Origin: Rhodocyclaceae bacterium | GTDB lineage: Bacteria > Pseudomonadota > Gammaproteobacteria > Burkholderiales > Rhodocyclaceae | NCBI GenBank assembly: GCA_028713915.1 | Contig: JAQTNK010000003.1 | Location: forward strand, 82,775-146,774 | Direction of reading: 5' to 3' | Length of the DNA: 64,000 nt | Part shown: in pieces, positions 3,220 to 64,000 of the stretch | How positions within the stretch are numbered: the stretch's first letter is position 1 | How the letters are laid out: each line of letters begins with the position of its first letter | The notes under the pieces: generated by a model | Told to the model about the DNA's origin: nothing | What the model saw: the letters and a program-made list of their open reading frames with translations, nothing else | Database searches by the model: none | Translations under genes and position numbers: made by a program

Positions 3220-5001
3220 TCAATGAGAGTCGACGTTGCGTTGCAGCCAGTATTCGAACAGCGCGAGATGCCAAAGCTTGCTGCCTTCGATGCGCGTGCG
3301 GTGCTTTTCCGGTTCCTTGAGCAGCCGCTCGACGTAGGCGCGGTCGAACACGCCGCGTTCGCGGCAGGCGCGGGAGTCGAGAATGCCGCGCATGAAGTCG
3401 AGAAACGCACCGCGCACGTACTTCAGCGCCGGCATGGGAAAGTAGCCCTTGGGGCGATCGATGACCGCATCGGGCAGCAGGCCGCGGGCGATGTGCTTGA
3501 GGACGTGCTTGCCGCCCGAGGCGAGCTTGAGCGCCGGCGGCATGGTCGCCGCCAGTTCGACCAGGTGATGGTCGAGGAACGGCACGCGCGCCTCCAGCCC
3601 CCATGCCATCGTCATGTTATCGACGCGCTTGACCGGATCGTCGGTGACCAGCAGCGTCGCTTCGGCGCGCAGCACCTGGTCGATGAACTCGTCGGCGAAC
3701 GGCGCCGCCAGCCGTTCGGCGAGCAGCGCGGAACTGGCGTCGCCGCCGCGGAAGCGCGGCTCGACCATCGCTTCGAACTCGTCGTGGTCGCGGTCGAAAT
3801 AGCGGCTGCGAAAACGCTCCAGCGGCGCTTCCCCGCCGGCGGCGTGCATACCCTGATGCCAGAAGTAGCCGCCGAAGACCTCGTCGGCGCCCTGCCCGCT
3901 CTGCACCACCTTGACGGTGTGCGACACCTGCTCGGACAACAGGTAGAAGGCGACGACGTCCTGGCTGGCCATGGGTTCGGCCATGCAGTCGACGGCTTCG
4001 GGCAGGCGCTGCAGCACCTGGTCGTTGGCAATGCGGTACTTGTGGTGGCGCGTGCCGAAGTAGCGGGCGACGGCATCGGAATATTCGAACTCGTTGCCGA
4101 TTTCCTCGGGCTGGTCCTCGAAGCCGATGGAAAAAGTCATCAGGTCGCTGACGCCCTGCTCGGCGAGCAGCGCCACGAGCAGCGACGAATCGAGTCCGCC
4201 CGACAGCAGCACGCCGACCTTGACGTCGGCGATCTCCAGGCGCTTCTTCACCGCGGCGCGCAGCGCTGCATGGATCTGCTCGGTCCATTGATGTTCGGTC
4301 GGCGGCAGCGGCGGGCGCTGCGCCCGCAGACTCCAATAGCGGCGCGTCTGCGTGACGCCGGCGGCATCGATGCGCTGGATGGTTCCCTGCTCGACCTTGC
4401 GGATGCCGCGCAGGATGGTATGCGGCGCCGGCACCACGGCGTGCAAGGTGAACTGGTAATGCAGGGCGACGGGGTCGATCGCCGTATCGACACCGCCGGC
4501 GGCAAGCAGCGCCTGGGTGTTCGACGCGAAGCGCAGGCAGCGTTCGTCGCGGCTGAAGTAGAGCGGCTTGATGCCGAGGCGGTCGCGCGCCAGGAACAGC
4601 GTGTTCGCCCGGCGATCCCATATGGCGAAAGCGAAGGCGCCGTGCAAGCGTTCGACGCATGATTCGCCCCACTCGGCATAAGCGCGCAGGATGACTTCGG
4701 TATCGCCGTCGGAAAAGAAGGCATGGCCGCGCCCCTGCAGCACCGCGCGCAATTCCGGGTAGTTGTAGATGGTGCCGTTGAACACCAGCGCCAGGCCGCG
4801 CGACTCATCCACCATCGGCTGCCGCGAACGGTCGGACAGGTCGATGATGGCGAGGCGGCGATGGCCGAAGGCCAGCGGCCCGTCGCTCCAGACGCCGGCC
4901 GCGTCCGGCCCGCGGCGCGCGAGGCGCGCGTTCATGCGCTCAATCGCGGACACGTCCGCCGATTGGCCGTCAAATCGAAATTCGCCTGCAATGCCGCACA
5001 T
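3220..5001 (-). CDS. Asparagine synthase-like N-acetylglutaminylglutamine amidotransferase
   Basis: A class II glutamine amidotransferase of 593 aa. Cys2 after the initiator Met (MCGIAGEF) is the nucleophile of the N-terminal glutaminase domain. The synthetase domain carries the ATP-binding SGGLDSS motif. Details such as RRGPDAAGVWSDGP, AVVPAPHTILRGIRK and the C-terminal EGSKLWHLALFEYWLQ fit the asparagine-synthase-like family that amidates N-acetylglutaminylglutamine to make the osmoprotectant NAGGN, rather than ordinary AsnB. The usual partner, a GNAT-type N-acetylglutaminylglutamine synthetase (Ngg), is not in the window. Here the neighbour is glgC. The family call rests on remembered sequence features; plain AsnB is the alternative. 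Confidence 0.85.
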   Translation of the reverse strand: MCGIAGEFRFDGQSADVSAIERMNARLARRGPDAAGVWSDGPLAFGHRRLAIIDLSDRSRQPMVDESRGLALVFNGTIYNYPELRAVLQGRGHAFFSDGDTEVILRAYAEWGESCVERLHGAFAFAIWDRRANTLFLARDRLGIKPLYFSRDERCLRFASNTQALLAAGGVDTAIDPVALHYQFTLHAVVPAPHTILRGIRKVEQGTIQRIDAAGVTQTRRYWSLRAQRPPLPPTEHQWTEQIHAALRAAVKKRLEIADVKVGVLLSGGLDSSLLVALLAEQGVSDLMTFSIGFEDQPEEIGNEFEYSDAVARYFGTRHHKYRIANDQVLQRLPEAVDCMAEPMASQDVVAFYLLSEQVSHTVKVVQSGQGADEVFGGYFWHQGMHAAGGEAPLERFRSRYFDRDHDEFEAMVEPRFRGGDASSALLAERLAAPFADEFIDQVLRAEATLLVTDDPVKRVDNMTMAWGLEARVPFLDHHLVELAATMPPALKLASGGKHVLKHIARGLLPDAVIDRPKGYFPMPALKYVRGAFLDFMRGILDSRACRERGVFDRAYVERLLKEPEKHRTRIEGSKLWHLALFEYWLQRNVDSH

Positions 5002-52147: not shown

Positions 52148-52564
52148 TTAAAGCCCCAGCGCCGCCTTCTGTGCGCGACCCCACGCGCGGCAGGATTCGG
52201 CGTGGTCGTTGTAGGCGGAGTGCTCGGCGCTCGGCGCTGTGCGCAGCAGCTTGATTTCGTCGCTGATGCTGTATTGCTCGCCGATCATGTCCTGCACCTG
52301 CTGACGGATCAGCCGGACGTGCGGGCTGGCGGCGGAGATGGCGGCGCCCAGGGTCGGCGTCAGCGTCACGGTCTGGATGCTCGCGGCGATCTCCGCCGGT
52401 TGATCGTCCGGCAGCGTGGCGCCGTCAGGCAGGCTGACATAGGTAGTCCCATCGACTGTAGCCAGCTCGGTGCCGAGGCGCTGATGGCTCTCGTTTTCCG
52501 GCAGGTTGAGTTCCCGCGTGATCAGCGCGTCGATATGTTTTTGGTAACTGACGATAGTAGGCAC
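52148..52564 (-). CDS. Phage protein of unknown function overlapping the RT end
   Basis: 138 aa starting with GTG at 52564 (AAGGAG seven bases before), VPTIVSYQKHIDALITRELNLPENES... No signal or membrane segment. It overlaps the last 140 bases of the reverse transcriptase gene in another frame. Position after the DGR and before the lysis genes could suggest a tail assembly factor, but nothing in the sequence shows it. Confidence 0.55.
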   Translation of the reverse strand: MPTIVSYQKHIDALITRELNLPENESHQRLGTELATVDGTTYVSLPDGATLPDDQPAEIAASIQTVTLTPTLGAAISAASPHVRLIRQQVQDMIGEQYSISDEIKLLRTAPSAEHSAYNDHAESCRAWGRAQKAALGL

Positions 52565-53513
52565 GGTGCTTCTCCTTGAGAGTGCGCAGCATGTGCTGCA
52601 ATGAATGGGTGCGCCGGGCATGACCCAGGCACGAGGCGAGACATCCCGCATCGCCATGTTTCACGGCGCGACGGAAGGTAAAGAGGCTGTGGCGCCGCAC
52701 GAAGCGCTTGCTGGCCCAGGTGCGATAGCCGACGAAGTTGAGGCCGCGCGTCACGCGCGCCAAGGTGAATTTCGAGAGTTCCAGACCCAGGCCGGCAATG
52801 AATTCGACGATCCGCGCCTGGTGCGCAAGCAACTCATCGCGCGACAGGCCAAAGAGGACGAAGTCATCCACATAGCGGCAGTAGCGCTCGATCTTCAATT
52901 CGCGCTTGATGAAGTGGTCGAGCGGGTTGAGGTAGATCAGCGCGTAGAGTTGCGACAGCAGGTTACCGATCGGGATGCCCACCGGCTCGCCGTGATCGGC
53001 GAAGGCCATCATCAGATCGACGAACCGCCGATCCTTGATGCGGCGCTCGATCAGGCCGCGCAGGATTCCGCGGTCGATGCGATAGAAGAACTTGCGAATA
53101 TCGAGCTTCAGCGTGTAGCTGTCCGGCGCACACGCATGCAACGCGGCCTGCGCGTAGTCCGCCGCCTTGTGCGTGCCATAGCCGATCCGGCAGGCGAAGC
53201 TCTGGTCGATGAACGTCCGGTCGAAAATCGGCCCAACCACGGCGTAGATGGCGTGCTGCACCACTAGGTCGCGGAAGGCCGGCGCGAAGATGCGGCGGGG
53301 CTTCGGTTCGTACACCATGAAGCTGTAATAGGGGCGCGGCCGATACCTGCCGTCCATCAATTCTCGATGTAGCGCATCGAGATTGCTGGCCAGGTGCGTT
53401 TCGAAATTGAAGCAGGCGCGCTTGCCGTGCTTGTGCCGGGCCGAGGCGTGGAACGCAGCCAACAGCGCTTCCGGCGTGAAGGCGCGTTCGTAGAGGTGGC
53501 CGATGCGCTTCAT
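52425..53513 (-). CDS. Diversity-generating retroelement reverse transcriptase
   Basis: 362 aa. It copies the TR RNA into error-prone cDNA that replaces the VR. RT motifs in order: LKLDIRKFFYRID (catalytic Asp about 138), the DGR-type motif GIPIGNLLSQLYALIYLNPLD (about 179-199), with SQ where group II introns have SP, and CRYVDDFVLFG (catalytic YVDD at 214-217). A thumb-like GLNFVGYRTW follows. No maturase, endonuclease or retron features. Its ATG overlaps the stop of the open frame that runs through the TR (ATGA). Confidence 0.95.
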   Translation of the reverse strand: MKRIGHLYERAFTPEALLAAFHASARHKHGKRACFNFETHLASNLDALHRELMDGRYRPRPYYSFMVYEPKPRRIFAPAFRDLVVQHAIYAVVGPIFDRTFIDQSFACRIGYGTHKAADYAQAALHACAPDSYTLKLDIRKFFYRIDRGILRGLIERRIKDRRFVDLMMAFADHGEPVGIPIGNLLSQLYALIYLNPLDHFIKRELKIERYCRYVDDFVLFGLSRDELLAHQARIVEFIAGLGLELSKFTLARVTRGLNFVGYRTWASKRFVRRHSLFTFRRAVKHGDAGCLASCLGHARRTHSLQHMLRTLKEKHRAYYRQLPKTYRRADHAGTQPAGKREPSAPRHRAGYSRWDYLCQPA

Positions 53514-53587
53514 GTCGCCTGGCCTTCGAGACGCGCATTGACGAAACTGAGCGCCCTACCAGAAAGGCGGAAGCCCACCGATTTCGC

Positions 53588-53603
53588 CGCACGTTGCCGT
53601 GCG
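53588..53603 (-). ncRNA. GNRA-loop hairpin in the TR-RT spacer
   Basis: Minus-strand CGCACG-GCAA-CGTGCG: a perfect 6-bp stem with a GCAA tetraloop, within the 154-nt spacer between TR and the RT start. In the Bordetella phage DGR a spacer of similar length 3' of TR is needed for priming with RT-Avd, so this may be part of the functional RNA. Confidence 0.4.
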
Positions 53604-53667
53604 CGCCGGAAAACATCTCCCTTGGTTCCACTTCGATCAAACCGCGATCCGTGAGGTGAAGCCGAGT

Positions 53668-53779
53668 CCGCGCGGAAGCCAACGTTGTTGTTGGAGTTGC
53701 CACGCACATTGTTGAGATTGAGGTACCAAACGCCAGCGCTGGATGAGTTGTTCCAGTTGCCGCCAGAGATCGGGCACAT
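53668..53779 (-). repeat. DGR template repeat (TR), 112 bp
   Basis: Coding strand starts ATGTGCCCGATC one base after the avd stop and ends in GC-rich CTTCCGCGCGG, the likely initiation-of-mutagenic-homology end. It holds 25 adenines, mostly in AAC/AAT codons (reads as NNVRGNSNNNVGFRA). 101 of 112 positions equal the VR; 10 of the 11 differences are at TR adenines. Confidence 0.95.
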
Positions 53780-53780
53780 G

Positions 53781-54191
53781 TTAAGACGCCTCCCGTTTAT
53801 CGAGCTGGCGATCGGCGACGATCCAGCCGCCGACCATCCTGCCCAATTCGTCAATCAGCCGCGACAACGCAAGGTAGCGATGCTCACCCGTCGCGACGGG
53901 CGTCTTCTCGGCCCGCTTGCCTTCCTTGAACTCGAAGTAGCCCAGCGTGTGGGCCAGCCGCACCAGCATGCGCAATTGCTCGTGGCGCACGTCGAGATTG
54001 GTGAGCGCGGTCTTCTTGTGATAGCGCTTCTGCGCTTCCACGATGAAGCTGTAGACGTCATACGCCGCCCGCCGGATTTCCAGCGCGAGACCGTACTTTT
54101 CATGCTTCGGGAAGTGATTCAGATAGATCGTCATCAGCTTCGCGAATTCCATGAATTTCTGATCCAGCTTCGCTTCATCGTGCAGCCCCAT
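53781..54191 (-). CDS. avd: DGR accessory variability determinant (Avd)
   Basis: 136 aa from the ATG at 54191 (MGLHDEAKLDQKFMEF). Entirely helical and basic, the four-helix-bundle type of Avd that binds RT and template RNA as a pentamer. Characteristic pieces are GLALEIRRAAYDVYSFIVEAQKRYHKKTALTNLD and LRMLVRLAHTLGYF. The track ORF starts earlier, inside the VR. It lies 17 bp after the target gene's stop and ends one base before the TR. Confidence 0.9.
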   Translation of the reverse strand: MGLHDEAKLDQKFMEFAKLMTIYLNHFPKHEKYGLALEIRRAAYDVYSFIVEAQKRYHKKTALTNLDVRHEQLRMLVRLAHTLGYFEFKEGKRAEKTPVATGEHRYLALSRLIDELGRMVGGWIVADRQLDKREAS

Positions 54192-54208
54192 CGCTATCGC
54201 TCGGGGAC

Positions 54209-55558
54209 TCAGAGATACAAGGCCGCGCGGAAGCCAACGTGGTAGTAGGAGTCGCCACGCACATTGGCGAGATCGAGGGACCAAACGCCAGCGCTGGAGG
54301 GGTTGTTCCAGTAGCCGCCAGAGATCGGGCACATTTCGTTCGGCTTGTAGTCGTAGAGTGTGTCGTTACCGAAGGCGTTGGTACCACCCACCCCGCCGGA
54401 CAACGGAGCGCCGAGCCCGGTGAAATTCCAGGCGTTTCCACTGGTGGCTTCGCCGAAGACTTGCGCAGCGTTGCCGAAGGCCACGGATCGATTGGCGCCC
54501 GTCGCCCACAATGCGCCGTAGGTCGTGCCGAGGGTCGTGTACATTGCCGCGTAGCCGGTGGCGCCCCACAGGTCCGTGGCCAGCGTGTTGCCGCCGGTCA
54601 CCGATTTCATGGCGACTGCGGAATTGAGGATGTAGAGGTTGGTTCCGTCCGAAGCCAGGCCGGGTTCGATGGTGTAGAAGCCGCCATTCAAGTCGGCCAC
54701 GCCACAGTTCTGGCCGTTGTGCGTGGTGCGCGCGAACAGATTGGCGCTGCCGGTCTTCGGCGCGTTGTAGGTGCCGTTGCCATCGCCGACGTAGAGGATT
54801 GAGGCGTCCTGCGCGTCGCCCAGCGCGTTGTTGTTGCATCCCTTGGGGAAGTTGTAGGTCGCGTTGTACCAGGCGCAGTAGGTGGTGGCACTACTGGCCT
54901 GCGCATGCGCCAGGGCCAGCATGGCGAGCGCAGCGCGCTGAAAGCGCGACGAGCAGAAGAAGTTACTGCCGCGCGTCTTGGCGGCGGCGATGGCGCCATA
55001 GTAGGCATTGGCCGGCGCGCCGGTCAGGCTGGCGAAGGTGGCCGTCGACAAGCTGCCGCGCGCCGCACTGGTGATGACGTTAGCGTTCTTGATACTCGAC
55101 GCGATGCCGCCGTTGTTGCTCGTCATGTACTTGTCGTAGAAAAAGCCCTGCTGCACGGCGCCGCCGTCGTAGAAGGCGCGATGCAGGGCATAGCCGGAAG
55201 CGTTGGCGGTGGCGATGTCGGCGAAGTAGGAGAAGGGCTTGATGTCGACGATGTTGACCGCGAAGCCGTTGGCGCCCGTGCCGTACTTGTAGAAGAAGGC
55301 GGGTACCCAGACCATGACGGAACCATCGCTGTACTGGTAGTTGCCGTAGTTGTCCGAACTGGGCGACGAGTAGCCGAACATCGCACCCATGCCGGCCGGC
55401 AGCGGGCCGGGGCAGATGCCGACACCGAAGCCCTGCTGGCCGGGCGTGCCGATGGCATTGACGGCGCCAGGCGCGCCGGCGCCGATGGCGATGCCGGTGG
55501 GGAAGGAAACCGGCTGCCCATCCTTGCCGGTGATCGTGCGAACGTTGAGGTTGCTCAT
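54209..55558 (-). CDS. DGR target protein: phage tail receptor-binding protein with variable C-terminus
   Basis: 449 aa from the ATG at 55558 (MSNLNVRTITGKDGQPVSFPTG). The N-terminal part is Gly-rich and fibre-like. The C-terminal half (from about 130) looks like a C-type-lectin/formylglycine-type fold, as in other DGR targets, ending in the VR (409-446) with CPISGGYWNN and FRAALYL. Residues changed relative to TR are 416, 420, 427, 429, 431, 436 and 438-440, presumably the ligand-binding face. Its start overlaps the stop of the upstream tail-fibre gene. Confidence 0.9.
   Translation of the reverse strand: MSNLNVRTITGKDGQPVSFPTGIAIGAGAPGAVNAIGTPGQQGFGVGICPGPLPAGMGAMFGYSSPSSDNYGNYQYSDGSVMVWVPAFFYKYGTGANGFAVNIVDIKPFSYFADIATANASGYALHRAFYDGGAVQQGFFYDKYMTSNNGGIASSIKNANVITSAARGSLSTATFASLTGAPANAYYGAIAAAKTRGSNFFCSSRFQRAALAMLALAHAQASSATTYCAWYNATYNFPKGCNNNALGDAQDASILYVGDGNGTYNAPKTGSANLFARTTHNGQNCGVADLNGGFYTIEPGLASDGTNLYILNSAVAMKSVTGGNTLATDLWGATGYAAMYTTLGTTYGALWATGANRSVAFGNAAQVFGEATSGNAWNFTGLGAPLSGGVGGTNAFGNDTLYDYKPNEMCPISGGYWNNPSSAGVWSLDLANVRGDSYYHVGFRAALYL
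54223..54334 (-). repeat. DGR variable repeat (VR), 112 bp
   Basis: The last part of the target gene, aligned without gaps to the TR. Compared with TR, codons AAC became TAC (three times), GAC, GCC and CAC, AAT became GAT, TAC became TCC, and TCA became CCC. The last includes the only non-adenine change (T to C). Homology begins exactly at the ATG shared by both copies. Confidence 0.95.
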
Positions 55559-56568
55559 ATGATGCTCCATTCAGAAGAGTCGTTGAGGGTGACATTCACG
55601 CCCGTGCCGATGGTCAGCGGACCACCGGAATAGGCGCTGTAGCCGCTGGGAATCGTGACGTCGGAGGCGATGGTGGACGGGTTCATGCGGACGGCAGGGT
55701 TGAGGCTGTTGTCGGCGGCAAGGGCGGCGGTCCAGGCGGCGGCGGCAGCGGCGGCGTTTGTGGCGGCGACGTTGCTCGCTGCGATTGCCGCATCACGCAC
55801 CACTTGCGCCGCGACCAACAGGGTAGTCATGTCGCTCGTCACGACCGCCTCCGCGGTGATGACGTTGACCACGTTCGTCCCATCGCACTGCAGCACCATG
55901 CGCAGACCCTGCGGCACCGGGATGCCGTCGCCGGCTGGCGTCTTGACGGTGAGCACATAAGGCGCGCCCGTCGCCGGGTTCGTTCCCGTCGTGTTGTTGA
56001 AGACGAAGTACTGGCGCGGCGAGGCCGGCACTACGACATTGCCATCCGCCGTGCGCGTGCCGTTGTAGCTGTGGAACAGGTTGCTGGCCTCCGATGTCGT
56101 CAGAACGACATCGCTGCCGCCGGCCACGGATTTCGCCAGGGCGCCGGTCAGCACCGCCTGCATCCCTGCAGGCGTCTGCACGCTGTAGGCGTTGCCGACG
56201 GCGTCATGCACGGTGACGGTGCCGGTTCCGGAAAGCCACGCGGTCATCTCGTCGAGCGTGACGTGGTAGCTGGTCATCAGCGCGGCCAGCTGGCTCGCGA
56301 GCTGCGCCGGCAGCGTGCTGGTGAAGTTGCGCACGATGGCGTAGTCCTGGGCGCTGGCGTTGGCGCCGGCGTAGGCGTCCGTGCCGCCGAGTTCGCGCAC
56401 GGCCAGGTGCGTGTCGTCGGTGATGGCGCTGACTTCGTAAAACGCCAGATCGGGACCGACGAAGAGATCGCCGACCGAGGCCTGGGTGTTCCAGAGTGTG
56501 CCCACGCCGACGACGTTGGGGCTGCCATTGACGACGGTGACGGTGCCGGTGCGATACCAGTTGCTCAT
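55555..56568 (-). CDS. Phage tail fibre protein
   Basis: 337 aa: MSNWYRTGTVTVVNGSPNVVGVGTLW, a beta-rich start frequent in tail fibre/baseplate adaptor proteins. An Ala-rich helical stretch (VVRDAAIAASNVAATNAAAAAAAW, about 255-280) follows, then a beta-rich end. It probably links the tail tip to the DGR target. Stop and start overlap both neighbours (ATGA). Confidence 0.75.
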   Translation of the reverse strand: MSNWYRTGTVTVVNGSPNVVGVGTLWNTQASVGDLFVGPDLAFYEVSAITDDTHLAVRELGGTDAYAGANASAQDYAIVRNFTSTLPAQLASQLAALMTSYHVTLDEMTAWLSGTGTVTVHDAVGNAYSVQTPAGMQAVLTGALAKSVAGGSDVVLTTSEASNLFHSYNGTRTADGNVVVPASPRQYFVFNNTTGTNPATGAPYVLTVKTPAGDGIPVPQGLRMVLQCDGTNVVNVITAEAVVTSDMTTLLVAAQVVRDAAIAASNVAATNAAAAAAAWTAALAADNSLNPAVRMNPSTIASDVTIPSGYSAYSGGPLTIGTGVNVTLNDSSEWSII

Positions 56569-56738
56569 GCTTCTTCTCCTTCGGCGATCTTCGGAAGACC
56601 GCCGGCCATCTCGACTAGGGCGGTGTAGTCAGGGTGATCGGACGGAATAACGACGACTTCGACGCCCGCGCCATCGGCGATGATCCGATGTGCGATGAGG
56701 TCGCCGTTGATCCAGTAGGCAGAGGTGTAGTTGCTCAT
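56565..56738 (-). CDS. Small phage tail-region protein (57 aa)
   Basis: MSNYTSAYWINGDLIAHRIIADGAGVEVVVIPSDHPDY..., below the ORF-track threshold on its own. Start overlaps the stop of the tail-tip gene (ATGA) and its stop overlaps the tail-fibre start, so it is very likely translated. No family recognised. Confidence 0.65.
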   Translation of the reverse strand: MSNYTSAYWINGDLIAHRIIADGAGVEVVVIPSDHPDYTALVEMAGGLPKIAEGEEA

Positions 56739-59700
56739 GTGACCTTGTAGAGGCTCCAGTTGATGACGCAATTCGAGACCGAAACGACGTGCTTTCCCCA
56801 CAGCGACAGGCGCAGTCGAATGACCTGCGCGCCGCTCCAGACGGTGAGCGGAAGCACCGTGCAGACGATGCCCCAGTAGACGTCCGGCTGCGTGCCGGTA
56901 TTGGTGTAGACGGTGCCGCTCATGCCGGCATTGGCGAGGTAGGTGGCGTTGGCGCCCGCCCAGGCCGACAGCGGTTCCGCCGTATCGATGTCCCAGTGCG
57001 CGAGTTCGGTGTACTCGCTCGTGAAGGTGGTGTTGAAGCTTCCGGCGTTGTAGCTGCCGCTGCCCACCGCGAGCTGCCGCGACAGCACCACGCCGGTGAG
57101 CGTGGCGCTGCCGTCGGCGTTGATCGTGACGTTGCTGCCGACCTTGAGAAACGGCGCCGCCCCGGTGGCGTTGAAATCGATGTAATTGGTATTCGCCGCG
57201 TTCTGCGCGCGGCCGGCGGTGACGGTGCCGAGGTCGGCCTTGATCGCCGAGAGGTTGGTGACGGACAAGGCCTTGGCTGTGACCGATCCATCGACAATCA
57301 GATTGCCATCGAGCCCCAGCGCCGCGGCGCCGTTGATGGTGCCGAGCGTCACGATCTGCTTCGGCACGCCGGTGCCATCCGGCTGGTAGATGACAAGCTT
57401 GTCGGCGACGACGGCGAACACAGACTCGCCATCGGTGCCGGCGAGCAGCGTCAGGCCGGCGACGGCGCGCGTGCCGTCGGCCATGGTTTGCACCTGCACG
57501 CCCCACTCCGCCGAGACGCCGCCCAGCGCGTCGGCGGTGGCGATGGCTTGCGTTTTGACGGCGGCATAGTCGCCGGTATTCAGGCGCGCCGTCAGGGTGT
57601 CGATCATCGATGCTTGGGCGCCGTCGGCGGTCGCGCGGGCGGCGCTCTCCGCATCCAGCGCGGCGGCGGTCTGGCCCACTTGCGCGGCCAGGATCAGCCG
57701 TTCCGTCGCCTCGGCCGTGACGGCATCGGTGGTGGTCTTGATCGTCAGCTCGGCGCTGGCCACGCGCGCGACGGCACCCAGCGCCTGCAGGCGCCCGGCG
57801 TTGGCATCGAGCAGGGCCTGCAGCAGCCCCTCGGCGCCGGCCTGGCTGGCGGCGGACACCGCGGCCGGGTCGAGCACACCCAGGGCGCCGGCGACGGCGC
57901 TATCGACGTAGCTGCTGTCGGCCTTGAGCGAGATCTCGCCTTGCAGCTGGCTGATGTCCGTTTCGTCGGCAGTCAGGCGATCGCCGTAGGCCGTCAGCGT
58001 CTCGGTGTGGCTGACGATGCTGCCGTCCATGGCGCCGAGCTGGATCTGCACGCTGTTGAGTTGCGCTTCGACGTCGGTGGTGATGGCGGCCGTCGCCAGC
58101 AGCGTGACTTTGCCGGTGGCCGGATCGATGGTGGTGGTCGCGTCGGTAACCCACTTCTCGGTGATGGCGCGCTTCTTCAGCTCGTCGGCCTTGAGCAGCA
58201 GGTTCAATGCCGCTTCGGTGGCGGACTGCACCGCGGCGGCGGCATCAGGGATCTGCAGGATCGGCGCGGCCAGGTCGGCGGCGAGCTGCGGCACGCCGAT
58301 GCTGGCTTCCAGTTGCGCCAGGAGCGCGGAAGGATTGGCCGACGGCGCGCAGGCCACGCCGGCGGTGGCGCCGGCGGGATAGTAGTCGCTGGTGTTCTTG
58401 CTGGTGTCGGCGACGCGGCCCCAGTAGTACCAGGTCTGCGCCGGCTGCAGGCCGGTATGCTTCCACTTGGCGACGGGATCGAGCGCCGTGGTCAGCTGCG
58501 TCGCGGTGCTGCGGTTGTCGGTGGTGCTGCCCCAGATCTCGGTGTAGAAGCGGTCGGCCTGGTTCGGCGAGAAGGTCCAGGCCAGATCGTTTTCGAACAT
58601 GCCGCCCGTCGCGGTCAGCGACGCCAGGGACGCCGGCTTGTTGGCGGCGAGGGTGTAGGCGTAGGCCTCGACTTCGGCCAGCGATTCGAGGCCGTTGCCG
58701 AAGACGTTGAAGCTCGGCAGCTTGATGTAGATCGGCTTGCCCAGCCATTCGGCCGGCACGGCATAGCGGAAGATGGCGCCGTCGAGGCGCACGAACTGCG
58801 CGCCGGCGTTGTGCGCGGTGTTCGCCGTGCCCTTGACGCCGCGGCGCAGGTAGCTGCCGAGCGTGTATTTGTACTGCGCCGTCAGCGTGGCGGTCTGGTA
58901 CGACATCAGCTCGCCGTCGACCCAGCAGAGCGTCGTCAGGTTGTCGGCATCGGCCTGGCTGCCGCTGGTGAGCTGGCCGCGGCTTTGCGTGAGATCGACG
59001 GCGAGCGCGTGCGTGGTGTCGGGATCGGCGCCGGCGGCGATGCTGGCGGCGAGCACGCCCATGCGCGCCGGGTTGCTGACGACGCCGAGCTTGCGATAGG
59101 TGGCGTTGTCCTGGCTGGCCCAGACCTCGCAGCCGCCCCAATATTGGCCGCCGCACGCGGCGATCCAGACTTCGGTGTTGGGTGCCGTCAGCGAGTTCGG
59201 CGGGGTGAAGATGGCCGGCGCGCTGACCGAGCCGGGCGCGATGTTTTGCGACAGGGCGTACCCGCTGACGATCTGCGTCGTGTAGAGCGTCGCCGTCGCC
59301 GCGCCGACCGGGAATTCCTCGGCGGTGATCGCCAGGCCGCCGGTTTCGTCTTCCTCGATCTGCGTGATGCGGACGGGAAACTTGTTGAGGCCGAGATAGA
59401 CGTCGGTGATGGTGACGATGTCGCCGGGCTCAAGGCGCGCGTACTTCCAGCCGGCCGCGAATTCGTAGGTGTTGCGGATCGTCAGGTAGCGCTGCAGGAT
59501 GGTCTGCGCGACGAAGCTGGCGACGGCCGGATCGACGATCTCGTGGAACTGCACGACGTCGGCCGGGCGCAGGCCGAAGAGCTCGACGCTGGCCTGGTCC
59601 TGCACCTGGGCGATCTCGACGTTGTACTGGTTGCCGCGATTGCAGAACTCGACTTGCGCCTGGTTGAAGGCGTCCACCAGCGGCGAGCGCGTGATGACGA

Positions 59701-60589
59701 CGGGATCGCTATTGCCGGGCAGGAAGTCGTCGTCGGTGAGGTCGTAGATCGGCGTGGTGTTCGGCGTGTAGGTGGCGCCGTTGCCGGTGGCCGCCTGGTC
59801 GCCGTAGGGAATGAGCTTGAACTTGCCTTCCGACCAGACGATCTGGCTGTTGGTGAGTTGCGCCCACTCGGTGAGAATGTCCTGCGCGCCGCGCTGCTGC
59901 ACCAGCGCCGGGCTGATGAAAATGCCATTGGCGACGCAGTAGGCCGAGAACTGCGTCAGGTCGCCGATGGCCGCCGTCGGGAAGCCGACGCCGTAGGTGA
60001 TGTTGGCCAGGTAGTCGGCGATGACGTCGCGCGGGTTGGCGTCGGGAATGCCGCCCGAGAACGGCAACGGGCCTGAGGCCTCGAAGCTGTGGTTCGGCAG
60101 CCCAGCGCTGCTGTCGAGCTGATAGCTGGCGCCGGCGACGTAACCGGTCTGCGGATAGGCGACGGCCTCGTCGGGGTGGTTGGCGGACAGGTAGCCCCAG
60201 GGCGCCTGGCCGTTGCCGCCGCTGAAAAGCGACAGGCCGAGCGTGGCGAGGTCGGTCTGGTCCTTGCCCGCCCACACGGAGCCGATGGCCGAGACCGGGC
60301 CTTCGCACAGCCCCATGGCCACCGCTGCCTGGTAGGTGTAGGTGGTGTTGGTCGAGGTGACTTGGCCGCCGCCGCCGCCCTTGCCGCCGCCACCGCCGCT
60401 GCTGGTGGTCGTGGTGTGCGGCACGGCCTGGAAGTCGCCGTACCAGATGAGGTTGGCGGCGATCCGGTTCTTGCCCCACAGCAGCGGCACCGGCTGGCCA
60501 TATGCAGACGTCTGTATACGGATCGCGCCGATCATCGCGTCCGAAGTGTTGATGGCGGTGCCGCCACCGCCGCCGAACAGGCCGCCCAT
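56735..60589 (-). CDS. Phage tail tip/host-specificity protein (lambda gpJ/GTA gp15-like)
   Basis: 1284 aa from the ATG at 60589 (MGGLFGGGGGTAINTSDAMIGAIRIQTSAYGQPVPLLWGKNRI). A Gly/Lys run GGGGGKGGGGG sits near residue 75. The central tail-hub-like part (LRPADVVQFHEIVDP, ARLEPGDIVTITDVYLGLNKFPVRITQIEED) is followed by fibronectin-III-like segments (from about 790) and a long helical, coiled C-terminal stretch with beta-rich end. Forms the tail tip and contacts the cell surface. The 1395-codon track ORF starts too early. A 1095-codon antisense ORF is a shadow. Confidence 0.88.
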   Translation of the reverse strand: MGGLFGGGGGTAINTSDAMIGAIRIQTSAYGQPVPLLWGKNRIAANLIWYGDFQAVPHTTTTSSGGGGGKGGGGGQVTSTNTTYTYQAAVAMGLCEGPVSAIGSVWAGKDQTDLATLGLSLFSGGNGQAPWGYLSANHPDEAVAYPQTGYVAGASYQLDSSAGLPNHSFEASGPLPFSGGIPDANPRDVIADYLANITYGVGFPTAAIGDLTQFSAYCVANGIFISPALVQQRGAQDILTEWAQLTNSQIVWSEGKFKLIPYGDQAATGNGATYTPNTTPIYDLTDDDFLPGNSDPVVITRSPLVDAFNQAQVEFCNRGNQYNVEIAQVQDQASVELFGLRPADVVQFHEIVDPAVASFVAQTILQRYLTIRNTYEFAAGWKYARLEPGDIVTITDVYLGLNKFPVRITQIEEDETGGLAITAEEFPVGAATATLYTTQIVSGYALSQNIAPGSVSAPAIFTPPNSLTAPNTEVWIAACGGQYWGGCEVWASQDNATYRKLGVVSNPARMGVLAASIAAGADPDTTHALAVDLTQSRGQLTSGSQADADNLTTLCWVDGELMSYQTATLTAQYKYTLGSYLRRGVKGTANTAHNAGAQFVRLDGAIFRYAVPAEWLGKPIYIKLPSFNVFGNGLESLAEVEAYAYTLAANKPASLASLTATGGMFENDLAWTFSPNQADRFYTEIWGSTTDNRSTATQLTTALDPVAKWKHTGLQPAQTWYYWGRVADTSKNTSDYYPAGATAGVACAPSANPSALLAQLEASIGVPQLAADLAAPILQIPDAAAAVQSATEAALNLLLKADELKKRAITEKWVTDATTTIDPATGKVTLLATAAITTDVEAQLNSVQIQLGAMDGSIVSHTETLTAYGDRLTADETDISQLQGEISLKADSSYVDSAVAGALGVLDPAAVSAASQAGAEGLLQALLDANAGRLQALGAVARVASAELTIKTTTDAVTAEATERLILAAQVGQTAAALDAESAARATADGAQASMIDTLTARLNTGDYAAVKTQAIATADALGGVSAEWGVQVQTMADGTRAVAGLTLLAGTDGESVFAVVADKLVIYQPDGTGVPKQIVTLGTINGAAALGLDGNLIVDGSVTAKALSVTNLSAIKADLGTVTAGRAQNAANTNYIDFNATGAAPFLKVGSNVTINADGSATLTGVVLSRQLAVGSGSYNAGSFNTTFTSEYTELAHWDIDTAEPLSAWAGANATYLANAGMSGTVYTNTGTQPDVYWGIVCTVLPLTVWSGAQVIRLRLSLWGKHVVSVSNCVINWSLYKVT

Positions 60590-61017
60590 TACTCGACCCC
60601 TCGCACGCGCCAGAACTGCATGTCGCGCCCGGCCAGGCGGCCGGCGTCGAAACGGCTGCGCACGACGCCGCGTTCGGCGCGGAAGGCGTGCACGATCTCG
60701 GGCCAGGCGACGACGATGCCGGCGTGCGAGTAGCAGCGGCCGACCTTGTAGAGCACCAGGTCGCCGGGCAGCGGCGCGGCGACCGGATCGCCGTACTGCG
60801 CCACCCAGCCGAGGTAGCGCTCTTCGCTCTGGTGCAGCATCCAGTCGGCCGGATAGGGCCGCGGATCGATGGCCGGGATGAGGCCGGCGGCGTGATAGAC
60901 GCGCACCAGCAGCATGGCGCAATCGACGCCGGCGCCCTGGATGTCGGCCTCGTGGTGATAGGGCGTGCCGAGCCAGGCCAGGGCTTCGGTGACGATGCGC
61001 GCGCGGATCGTGTCCAT
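60589..61017 (-). CDS. NlpC/P60-family tail peptidase
   Basis: 142 aa with the papain-like triad: Cys in GAGVDCAMLL, His in YSHAGIVVAW, and a second His or polar residue in EIVHAF. Equivalent to GTA gp14/lambda gpK, a cell-wall-degrading tail-tip enzyme. Its stop shares a base with the tail-tip start (TAATG). Confidence 0.92.
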   Translation of the reverse strand: MDTIRARIVTEALAWLGTPYHHEADIQGAGVDCAMLLVRVYHAAGLIPAIDPRPYPADWMLHQSEERYLGWVAQYGDPVAAPLPGDLVLYKVGRCYSHAGIVVAWPEIVHAFRAERGVVRSRFDAGRLAGRDMQFWRVRGVE

Positions 61018-61018
61018 G

Positions 61019-61861
61019 TCAGTAGGCCGTTTCCGGCGCCGGCACGAACGGGTAGCCGCGGAATTTTCCGAGGTTGCCGAACTTGGCGCTGCAGGTGGCC
61101 AGCCGCTTGTCGCAGCCGGGATAGACGACGACGGTATCGCCCGCCGCCGGCGCGACGACGATCGGCCGGCTTGGGGTCAGCACGCCGCCGGCGTGCGTCT
61201 TGACGGTGTAGCTGGCGCCGACATTCTGGCCGCTGGTGAAGAGCACGGTGCCGAGCGCGAAATAGCCGTCCGCTTGCGCCAGGCCGGTATGCAGCGCGGT
61301 GGCCGTCGAGCCGCTCTGCAGCGTGGCGGCGACGCCGAGCGCCGCCTTGTTGAGGCCGCAGCCGGCGTCGTAGAGCGTGTGCAGGCAGCCAGGCTGGTAG
61401 AGGTTGCGCGGCATCTGGATGTTGAGCCGGTTGAGCAGGCTCTTGACCTTGATCTGCGCTTCGCTGCGGCCGAACTTGATGTCGGCGACATCGCCGTAGA
61501 ACTGGATCAGCGTGCCGGTGACAGGCGATTGCCAATCGGGCAGGAAGGCGCGCTCAAGCTGCAGCACGGCGCCATCGAGCGAGCCGACGCCGATGCCGCC
61601 GACGAAGGTGAGGCCCTGCGCGTCGGTGGCATTGCCGTAGATCGAGACGTCGAGCTCGTCGACCTCGACGCCAACGATGGTCTTGGTCTTGCCGCGCTTG
61701 ATGCGCGTCGCCGGAAACGCGTGGCCCGACCAGGTCAGGTCGATGTCGGCGCTGCCGACGCGGAAGACGGCGCCGCTCGATAGCGTGAAGGTGTAGAGGT
61801 CGGCCATGACGAAGAGGCCGCTGTTGAGCAAGGCGTCGAGCTGGGGCGTGGCGGATTTCAT
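61019..61861 (-). CDS. DUF2163/BR0599-family tail protein (GTA gp13/lambda gpL-like)
   Basis: 280 aa. The N-terminal DUF2163 part (TFTLSSGAVFRVGSADIDLTWSG) and the cysteine-bearing C-terminal BR0599 part (QPGCLHTLYDAGCGLNK, PGCDKRLATCSAKFGNLGKFRGYPFVP) are both clear. In lambda gpL and GTA gp13 these cysteines bind an Fe-S cluster. Distal tail hub component. Confidence 0.9.
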   Translation of the reverse strand: MKSATPQLDALLNSGLFVMADLYTFTLSSGAVFRVGSADIDLTWSGHAFPATRIKRGKTKTIVGVEVDELDVSIYGNATDAQGLTFVGGIGVGSLDGAVLQLERAFLPDWQSPVTGTLIQFYGDVADIKFGRSEAQIKVKSLLNRLNIQMPRNLYQPGCLHTLYDAGCGLNKAALGVAATLQSGSTATALHTGLAQADGYFALGTVLFTSGQNVGASYTVKTHAGGVLTPSRPIVVAPAAGDTVVVYPGCDKRLATCSAKFGNLGKFRGYPFVPAPETAY

Positions 61862-62445
61862 TTAACGCTCGCGATTTCCAGCTTCTTCAGCGCCCACAAC
61901 TGGTAGAGGAAGTTCTCGAACTCGGCGAGATCCTTCTCGAAGTGCACGCGGAAGTAGAAGTTGCCCGACCAGGTCAGCGCTGCGCCATTGGCTGGCGCCG
62001 TGTTGAAGGTGACGACGCCGCCGGTGCCGAGCGAAAAGGCGCTGGTCGCGACGCCGTTGACGAAGAGCTGGGGCGCGCCGTTGAGCTCTTTGACGGGCTC
62101 GACGAAGCCGGCCATCTGGCGCACCAGCTGGAAGCTCTTGGTGGCGCCGTCGCCGGTGCCGAGGGGCTGAGCGGTGACGGCGTTGTCGGTCGGATCGTTG
62201 AACAGGAAGGTGTCGAACGAGCCCTGGCGCGCGCAGAAGAAACCCATCAGGGTCTGCAGCTCGGTATTGACGGCGTCGGCCCGCAGGACTTCGTAGGTCA
62301 GCGCGAAATGCCAAATGGGATAGCTCCAGTTGGGCAGTCGCAATTCCTTGCCCGACACGGAACGCTGCGCGGAGGTGCTCCATTCGGGCGTCTTGAGGAC
62401 GCTCCAGGCGAGGCCAGGCAGCGAGGGGAGCAAGAGGTCGCTCAT
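61858..62445 (-). CDS. DUF2460 family tail protein (GTA gp12-like)
   Basis: 195 aa with the family marks LPGLAWSVLKTPEWSTSAQRSVSGKELRLPNWSYPIWHFALTYEVLR, GFFCARQGSFDTFLFNDPTDN and the C-terminal NFYFRVHFEKDLAEFENFLYQLWALKKLE. Distal tail protein at the tube end. Its ATG shares a base with the tape-measure stop. Confidence 0.9.
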   Translation of the reverse strand: MSDLLLPSLPGLAWSVLKTPEWSTSAQRSVSGKELRLPNWSYPIWHFALTYEVLRADAVNTELQTLMGFFCARQGSFDTFLFNDPTDNAVTAQPLGTGDGATKSFQLVRQMAGFVEPVKELNGAPQLFVNGVATSAFSLGTGGVVTFNTAPANGAALTWSGNFYFRVHFEKDLAEFENFLYQLWALKKLEIASVK

Positions 62446-64000
62446 TAGTGCTTCACGTCGATGAAATTGCGGTTCATCTGCTTCAGCAGCTTCTTCATGT
62501 CGCCGACGCGCACGACGTCGGAATCGCTGCGGGAGTGGATGTGGATGTCGCCGCCGCCGTTGCTGCCGCCGGCGCCGGCCATGCCGCGGATGACCTCGGC
62601 GTATTGCGCAGGCAGCACCATTTCCTGTTCATGCAACTGGGTGAGCGGATTGACGCCGGCGGGAATGTCGAAGCCGCCTTCGGCCGACATCAGGCGCGAG
62701 CCTGCGGCCAGCACTAGCCCATCGATGCCGATCGCGGCGGGTACCGCCATCGGGCCCAGATAGGGCGCCAGGAATGCCACTTCGCCCGCAAATGCTTGCG
62801 CGGCCGAATTGCCGATCGCCTTCAGCGCATTGGCCGCTTGCATCGCCAGCGATTCCGTCGAAGCGGCCGTCTCGGTGGCGGTGCGCGCCGCCGCTCCGGC
62901 TTCGGTCGCTGTCGTCATGCTGAGCTGGCTGGCGATGTAGGCCGCCACCTTCTTAGCCTCCATGCTGACGAACTCGCCGACGATGGCTTGCCCGATGCCG
63001 GACAATGCCTTCTTGAGCGTCGTCGTGCCCATGATCATGCCGGTGATCGACTTCTCGATCGCGCTGGTGATCGGCTGGAACAGCTTTGCCCATTCCTCCT
63101 TGCTGTTGTTCGCCATGTCGGTCTGGATCTTGGCGACCTCCAGCGCGTGCTTGCGCTCGACGTCGAGCAGCTTGTCCTTTTCCTTCTGAAGCTCGACATC
63201 GCTATGATTCGGATCATGCTCGGTCGCCGCGACGCGCGCCTGCTGCGCCTGCTGCTGGATGTCGAAGCGCTGGTCCTCGAACTGCTGTTCCAGCGCGAGC
63301 AGCTTGCCTTTGCTGATTTGGCCAAGGTCGTATTGACGCTTGGCCATTTCCTCATCCATCGTGACGCCATCGAGTGCGGACTTTTCGGCCGCATCGACGG
63401 CTTCGCGGTTCATGGCAATCTTTTGCGCGTTCGCCTTCTTGAGAATGTCCAGGTCGTTCTGCGCGATCTTGCGGCGAATGGCGATGCGCTCTTCCGAGGA
63501 GACGTTCTCGTCGCGCAGGATCGCCTGCCAGTACTGGTTCTCCTGCTGCTTGTCGAACTCGCGCAGATCGGCCGCCTTCTGGTAGTAGACCTTGAGGTCG
63601 GCGAGGTCGGCCTCCCAGCCGCTCATGCGCGACTTGTCCTTGGCGCCGGCCTTCGGATCGACGAAGTGTTTCTTGCCGTGCTCCTCGTTTCCGTCGCCCT
63701 CGTGCTTGGGCTTCTCGCCGTAGGCCGCCGCCACGGCCGCTTTCATCTTCTCGGCGGCGTCCTGTTCCATCTTCAGCCGCTTGGCGGTGGACTTGGCCAC
63801 GATCTCGTCGACCTGATCGAGGCCGACCTGCCAGGCCCGCGCGACTTCGCCGGTGGCCCAGGGCGTGGTGAACGCTTTCCATGCCGCCGTGGCAAATGCG
63901 GTGATATAAGTCACGCCGACAGCCAGGATGCCGCGGATCGCCTCGAACACTTCCTCGAAGACCAACTTCAGCGCAGTGATGGCGATCTGCACGACGGCGA
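62445..64000 (-). CDS. Tail tape measure protein, C-terminal part (runs off window)
   Basis: At least 518 codons; the track's start at 63992 is only an internal GTG and the frame stays open to the edge. A long Lys/Glu/Gln-rich coiled coil (about 60-270) is followed by an Ala/Gly-rich hydrophobic domain (IGQAIVGEFVSMEAKKVAAYIASQLS and AFLAPYLGPMAVPAAIGIDG). It ends with the FDIPAGVNPLTQLHEQEMVLPA motif seen at the end of many tape-measure proteins. Sets tail length and is ejected during infection. Confidence 0.88.
   Translation of the reverse strand, partial: AVVQIAITALKLVFEEVFEAIRGILAVGVTYITAFATAAWKAFTTPWATGEVARAWQVGLDQVDEIVAKSTAKRLKMEQDAAEKMKAAVAAAYGEKPKHEGDGNEEHGKKHFVDPKAGAKDKSRMSGWEADLADLKVYYQKAADLREFDKQQENQYWQAILRDENVSSEERIAIRRKIAQNDLDILKKANAQKIAMNREAVDAAEKSALDGVTMDEEMAKRQYDLGQISKGKLLALEQQFEDQRFDIQQQAQQARVAATEHDPNHSDVELQKEKDKLLDVERKHALEVAKIQTDMANNSKEEWAKLFQPITSAIEKSITGMIMGTTTLKKALSGIGQAIVGEFVSMEAKKVAAYIASQLSMTTATEAGAAARTATETAASTESLAMQAANALKAIGNSAAQAFAGEVAFLAPYLGPMAVPAAIGIDGLVLAAGSRLMSAEGGFDIPAGVNPLTQLHEQEMVLPAQYAEVIRGMAGAGGSNGGGDIHIHSRSDSDVVRVGDMKKLLKQMNRNFIDVKH

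Follow-up and report, generated by a model that had tools for sequence, protein, structure and literature searches.

An ordinary prophage DGR with one non-adenine difference between its repeats, and a T>G excess in related TR/VR pairs

The adenine specificity of DGRs is usually described as nearly exclusive. A 64,000-nucleotide stretch of a Rhodocyclaceae genome (contig JAQTNK010000003.1, positions 82,775 to 146,774; here called the window) contains a template repeat (TR) and a variable repeat (VR) that differ at adenines of the TR and at one thymine. Does that thymine mean that the pair is not purely DGR-derived, and what could have changed it?

Read on the minus strand, the TR (window positions 53779 to 53668) and the VR (54334 to 54223) were compared over 112 positions. 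The TR contained 25 adenines in this stretch and 11 positions differed, 10 of which (91%) were template adenines; the chance of at least 10 of 11 differences landing on adenine is 5.5e-7 (hypergeometric). For comparison, the published threshold for a DGR is at least 75% of TR/VR mismatches at template adenines (PMC8144416). Outcomes at adenine were mixed: four A>C, three A>T, and three A>G. No difference was found at any adenine of the VR, so the TR-to-VR polarity is unambiguous. The only non-adenine difference in the 112 nt was T>C, with T at 53746 in the TR and C at 54301 in the VR. In the VR the codon TCA became CCC, exchanging Ser for Pro, and its third position accounted for one of the A>C changes. 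The sequence-only reading had reported exactly these counts, as well as the occurrence of T, C, and G at changed adenines. Its numbering of the variable residues (416, 420, 427, 429, 431, 436, and 438-440) is right when counted from the methionine of MSNLNV (ATG at 55558), the likelier target start and the one backed by 40 homologues. Counted from the longer open reading frame start, the same residues are 420, 424, 431, 433, 435, 440, and 442-444.

The pattern was not particular to this pair. The comparison set for the window family consisted of 118 distinct TR/VR pairs from relatives, with the ends trimmed. Across these pairs 56% of adenine sites were changed and approximately 1% of non-adenine sites, so the alignment of related pairs proposed from the sequence alone gave the same adenine-directed picture. 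Together with the RT and Avd, these pairs identify the repeats as those of a DGR, as had been claimed.

The repeat extended 3 nt past the end first reported, to 115 nt, adding a twelfth difference (A>C at 53667 in the TR and 54222 in the VR; 11 of 12 differences at template adenines over 115 nt). Here the TR has GACT where the VR has GCCT, a contrast shared by 155 of 160 related pairs at their 3′ boundary. Since this difference is fixed in relatives, it looks like a boundary of the IMH/IMH* kind and was not counted as mutagenesis. GACT/GCCT is a candidate IMH discriminator for the window family. The hairpin sequence, GCGATAGC, was present in 73 of 118 relatives, and the published consensus for the hairpin loop is GRNA (PMC3240598). 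Judged by sequence, the functions of the IMH-like boundary and of the hairpin in this cassette are putative.

The anatomy of the cassette was directly observed in the window (Table 1). In minus-strand order, the tail genes are followed by the target with its VR, the hairpin, avd, the TR, the spacer, and the RT. The upstream phage tail genes place the cassette in a prophage. No second copy of the TR or VR was found elsewhere in the genome, a draft of 74 contigs, leaving a single VR, and an Rfam search gave no match.

Table 1. Features of the DGR cassette and its surroundings, in window positions.
Feature	Position	Strand	Remarks
Phage tail genes upstream of cassette	55555..63992	-	Tail fibre, tail tip, tail assembly, and tape measure matches
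Target (variable) protein gene	54209..55570	-	453 codons; C-type-lectin-like domain at C-terminus
VR (variable repeat)	54220..54334	-	115 nt; 11 nt short of target ORF end
Hairpin/cruciform-forming inverted repeat, GATA (GRNA-type) loop	54184..54209	-	Immediately past VR
avd, Avd accessory protein gene	53781..54191	-	PF22296 bAvd E 1e-17; phrog_3206 E 4e-24
TR (template repeat)	53665..53779	-	115 nt, 26 A; noncoding, between avd and RT
TR-RT spacer	53514..53664	-	151 nt; positional equivalent of BPP-1 spacer
DGR reverse transcriptase (RT)	52425..53513	-	RVT_1; phrog_1423; IGNLLSQ + YVDD

The two RT motifs (protein P0002) form the DGR-clade signature, the first being an instance of the published DGR motif (I/V/L)GxxxSQ (PMC3521204) and the second of YxDD. 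The best solved relative of the RT was the 8ub7 RT (E 6e-54), and identity to BPP-1 Brt was 39%. RT identity in the nearest contigs found was 79-81%, and searches for relatives returned no sister phage closer than approximately 81%. Among these DGRs, that of the Rhodocyclales MAG contig JACPUD010000126 (RT 81% identical) had the same layout; unlike the window pair, all 18 of its 18 TR/VR differences were at adenine, with no non-adenine outlier. The DGR of Bordetella phage BPP-1 (mtd-avd-TR-brt) shares the gene order of the window cassette and likewise has adenine-directed TR/VR change, an Avd, and a hairpin after the VR. It differs in its longer TR (134 nt) and hairpin loop, and the window target is not Mtd by sequence. 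The nearest annotated phage RT, at 59% identity, was that of Pseudomonas phage Bise (OR683401), in which a four-helix-bundle gene occupies the place of Avd beside the RT. The Bise locus is not annotated as a DGR, and its DNA was 73% identical to the cassette over 21%. The Bise RT and adjoining four-helix-bundle gene resemble an unannotated DGR of the window family.

The target protein matched phrog families of tail or unknown function. Its structural model (pLDDT 85.8, pTM 0.87) was best matched among solved structures by TaqVP of Thermus aquaticus (5vf4, E 7e-16; 18% identity), followed by Mtd (1yu0, E 2e-3). A profile built from the 40 target homologues also retrieved the TaqVP entry by sequence. 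TaqVP is a DGR variable protein with an FGE-type C-type lectin fold; its source is a thermophilic bacterium, unlike that of the window target. The earlier suggestion of a lectin-like target is thus borne out by fold, and from the fold match the nine variable residues are predicted to be surface-exposed. Ligand binding by this variable site would be in keeping with the model.

Found together at this locus were the RT motifs, the adenine-directed mismatches, a VR at the 3′ end of the target, Avd, an IMH-like boundary with a hairpin, and a lectin-fold target. The locus is almost certainly a complete, canonical prophage DGR that randomises the tip, and with it the predicted ligand site, of a tail protein resembling C-type lectins. 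In such a cassette the RT and Avd would copy TR RNA into cDNA, placing wrong bases opposite adenine. Upstream of the hairpin and the fixed, IMH-like boundary, this cDNA would then take the place of the VR, and each replacement would vary the ligand site of the tail protein. The cassette may be active at present.

Against this background the T>C difference was polarised by comparison with relatives. All six of the six nearest distinct TRs have T at the position corresponding to 53746, so T is ancestral, C is derived, and the change is on the VR side. Such outliers are common: 41 of the 118 window-family pairs (35%) had at least one non-adenine difference, and a published survey of 1,874 TR/VR pairs found non-adenine differences in 46.3% (PMC6642488). 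With outliers this frequent, the T>C gives no date for the pair and is no argument against its DGR origin, and the statement in the sequence-only reading that it marks the pair as not purely DGR-derived is not supported. The cassette is one more DGR, ordinary and complete, and its single outlier is ordinary too.

The sequence-only reading had proposed a later mutation in the TR or VR, or an RT error at U, as sources of the outlier. A change in the TR is very unlikely and was rejected by the polarisation, with no support found for it; both VR-side sources are compatible with the data. An assembly error or strain chimera is scarcely credible: the genome is a 74-contig draft, but the differences track adenine almost exclusively and relatives keep the layout and spacing. 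The change on the VR side probably came either from the RT, erring at a low rate at template U, or from a point mutation after the last homing.

An RT error, with dG placed opposite U in the same cDNA as the adenine changes, has close to an even chance of being the source. The T>C is flanked by changed adenine sites, and non-adenine changes in the window family clustered at template T, with 38 of 1742 T sites differing (2.2%) against 27 of 4866 C and G sites (0.55%; p = 4e-8, optimistic because pairs are related). Most of this excess, however, was T>G, and a single case is not assignable. Taken alone, T>C was mildly in excess of other transitions when the window family and a BPP-1-like set were pooled (13 of 2457 against 16 of 7376, 2.4-fold; p = 0.018, made optimistic by kinship). 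This 2.4-fold excess also tells against an ordinary point mutation of the VR after the last homing event, a source that is somewhat short of an even prospect; yet the frequencies of other TR/VR transitions were comparable in magnitude (approximately 0.2% of sites for both C>T and G>A), and the alignment column of position 424 is tolerant, containing S, G, and A. The T>C excess is so weak that RT error and later mutation are not separable.

The T>G changes were more pronounced. Loci were grouped into clades by the query that found them, not by a tree, and the p-values in these comparisons are optimistic because the pairs are related. The differing T sites of the window family comprised 27 changes to G, 10 to C, and one to A. 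In the BPP-1-like set 3.2% of T sites differed (19 to G, three to C, and one to A, of 715) against 0.24% of C and G sites (p = 8e-11). Pooling the two gave 46 T>G at 2457 sites and three G>T at 3778 sites (p = 8e-16). The gut-phage set differed at only one of 637 T sites; approximately 12 T>G would be expected there at the pooled rate and one was observed (p = 9e-5). Polarisable T>G cases fell on the VR side 31 times and on the TR side twice. Across DGRs at large T is most often replaced by C (PMC6642488), unlike in these two clades.

Three sources of the T>G excess were rejected. Sequencing error would strike TR and VR alike and make G>T equal to T>G, whereas the counts were three and 46. Ordinary drift does not fit, as differences between TRs were led by C/T (140 of 441, with 65 G/T) and had no T>G bias, unlike TR-VR differences. 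A repeat-boundary artefact is contradicted by the persistence of the excess when the count is confined to the stretch from the first changed adenine to the last. Selection may be behind part of the excess, as several BPP-1-like pairs have TCC>GCC at one and the same site.

The pattern suggests that some DGR reverse transcriptases may, to a minor extent, err at template U. It fits an occasional C opposite U, since C is also favoured opposite A (A>G was the commonest change at template adenines in the pairs). No link was found between T>G and the number of changed adenines in these pairs, so one line of evidence that could have favoured an RT origin is lacking. On the sequence comparisons, the chances are balanced that the RTs of the proteobacterial-phage DGR clades (the window family and the BPP-1-like one) make a second, weaker directed error, C opposite U, giving T>G at approximately 2% of T sites or about 1/30 of the adenine rate. 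As the gut-phage set would lack such an error, the specificity for adenine would come in degrees and depend on the clade. If a directional T>G minority proves reproducible in the two related clades, it would be a clue to nucleotide selection by the RT, and thymines of the TR could be treated as minor variable sites. The T>G excess deserves to be followed up.

TCC>GCC (Ser>Ala) occurred at apparently one site in the VRs of several TRs (BPP-1-like loci L253, L257, L260, L270, L279, L280, L288, and L291), as would be expected of a hot spot or of selection.
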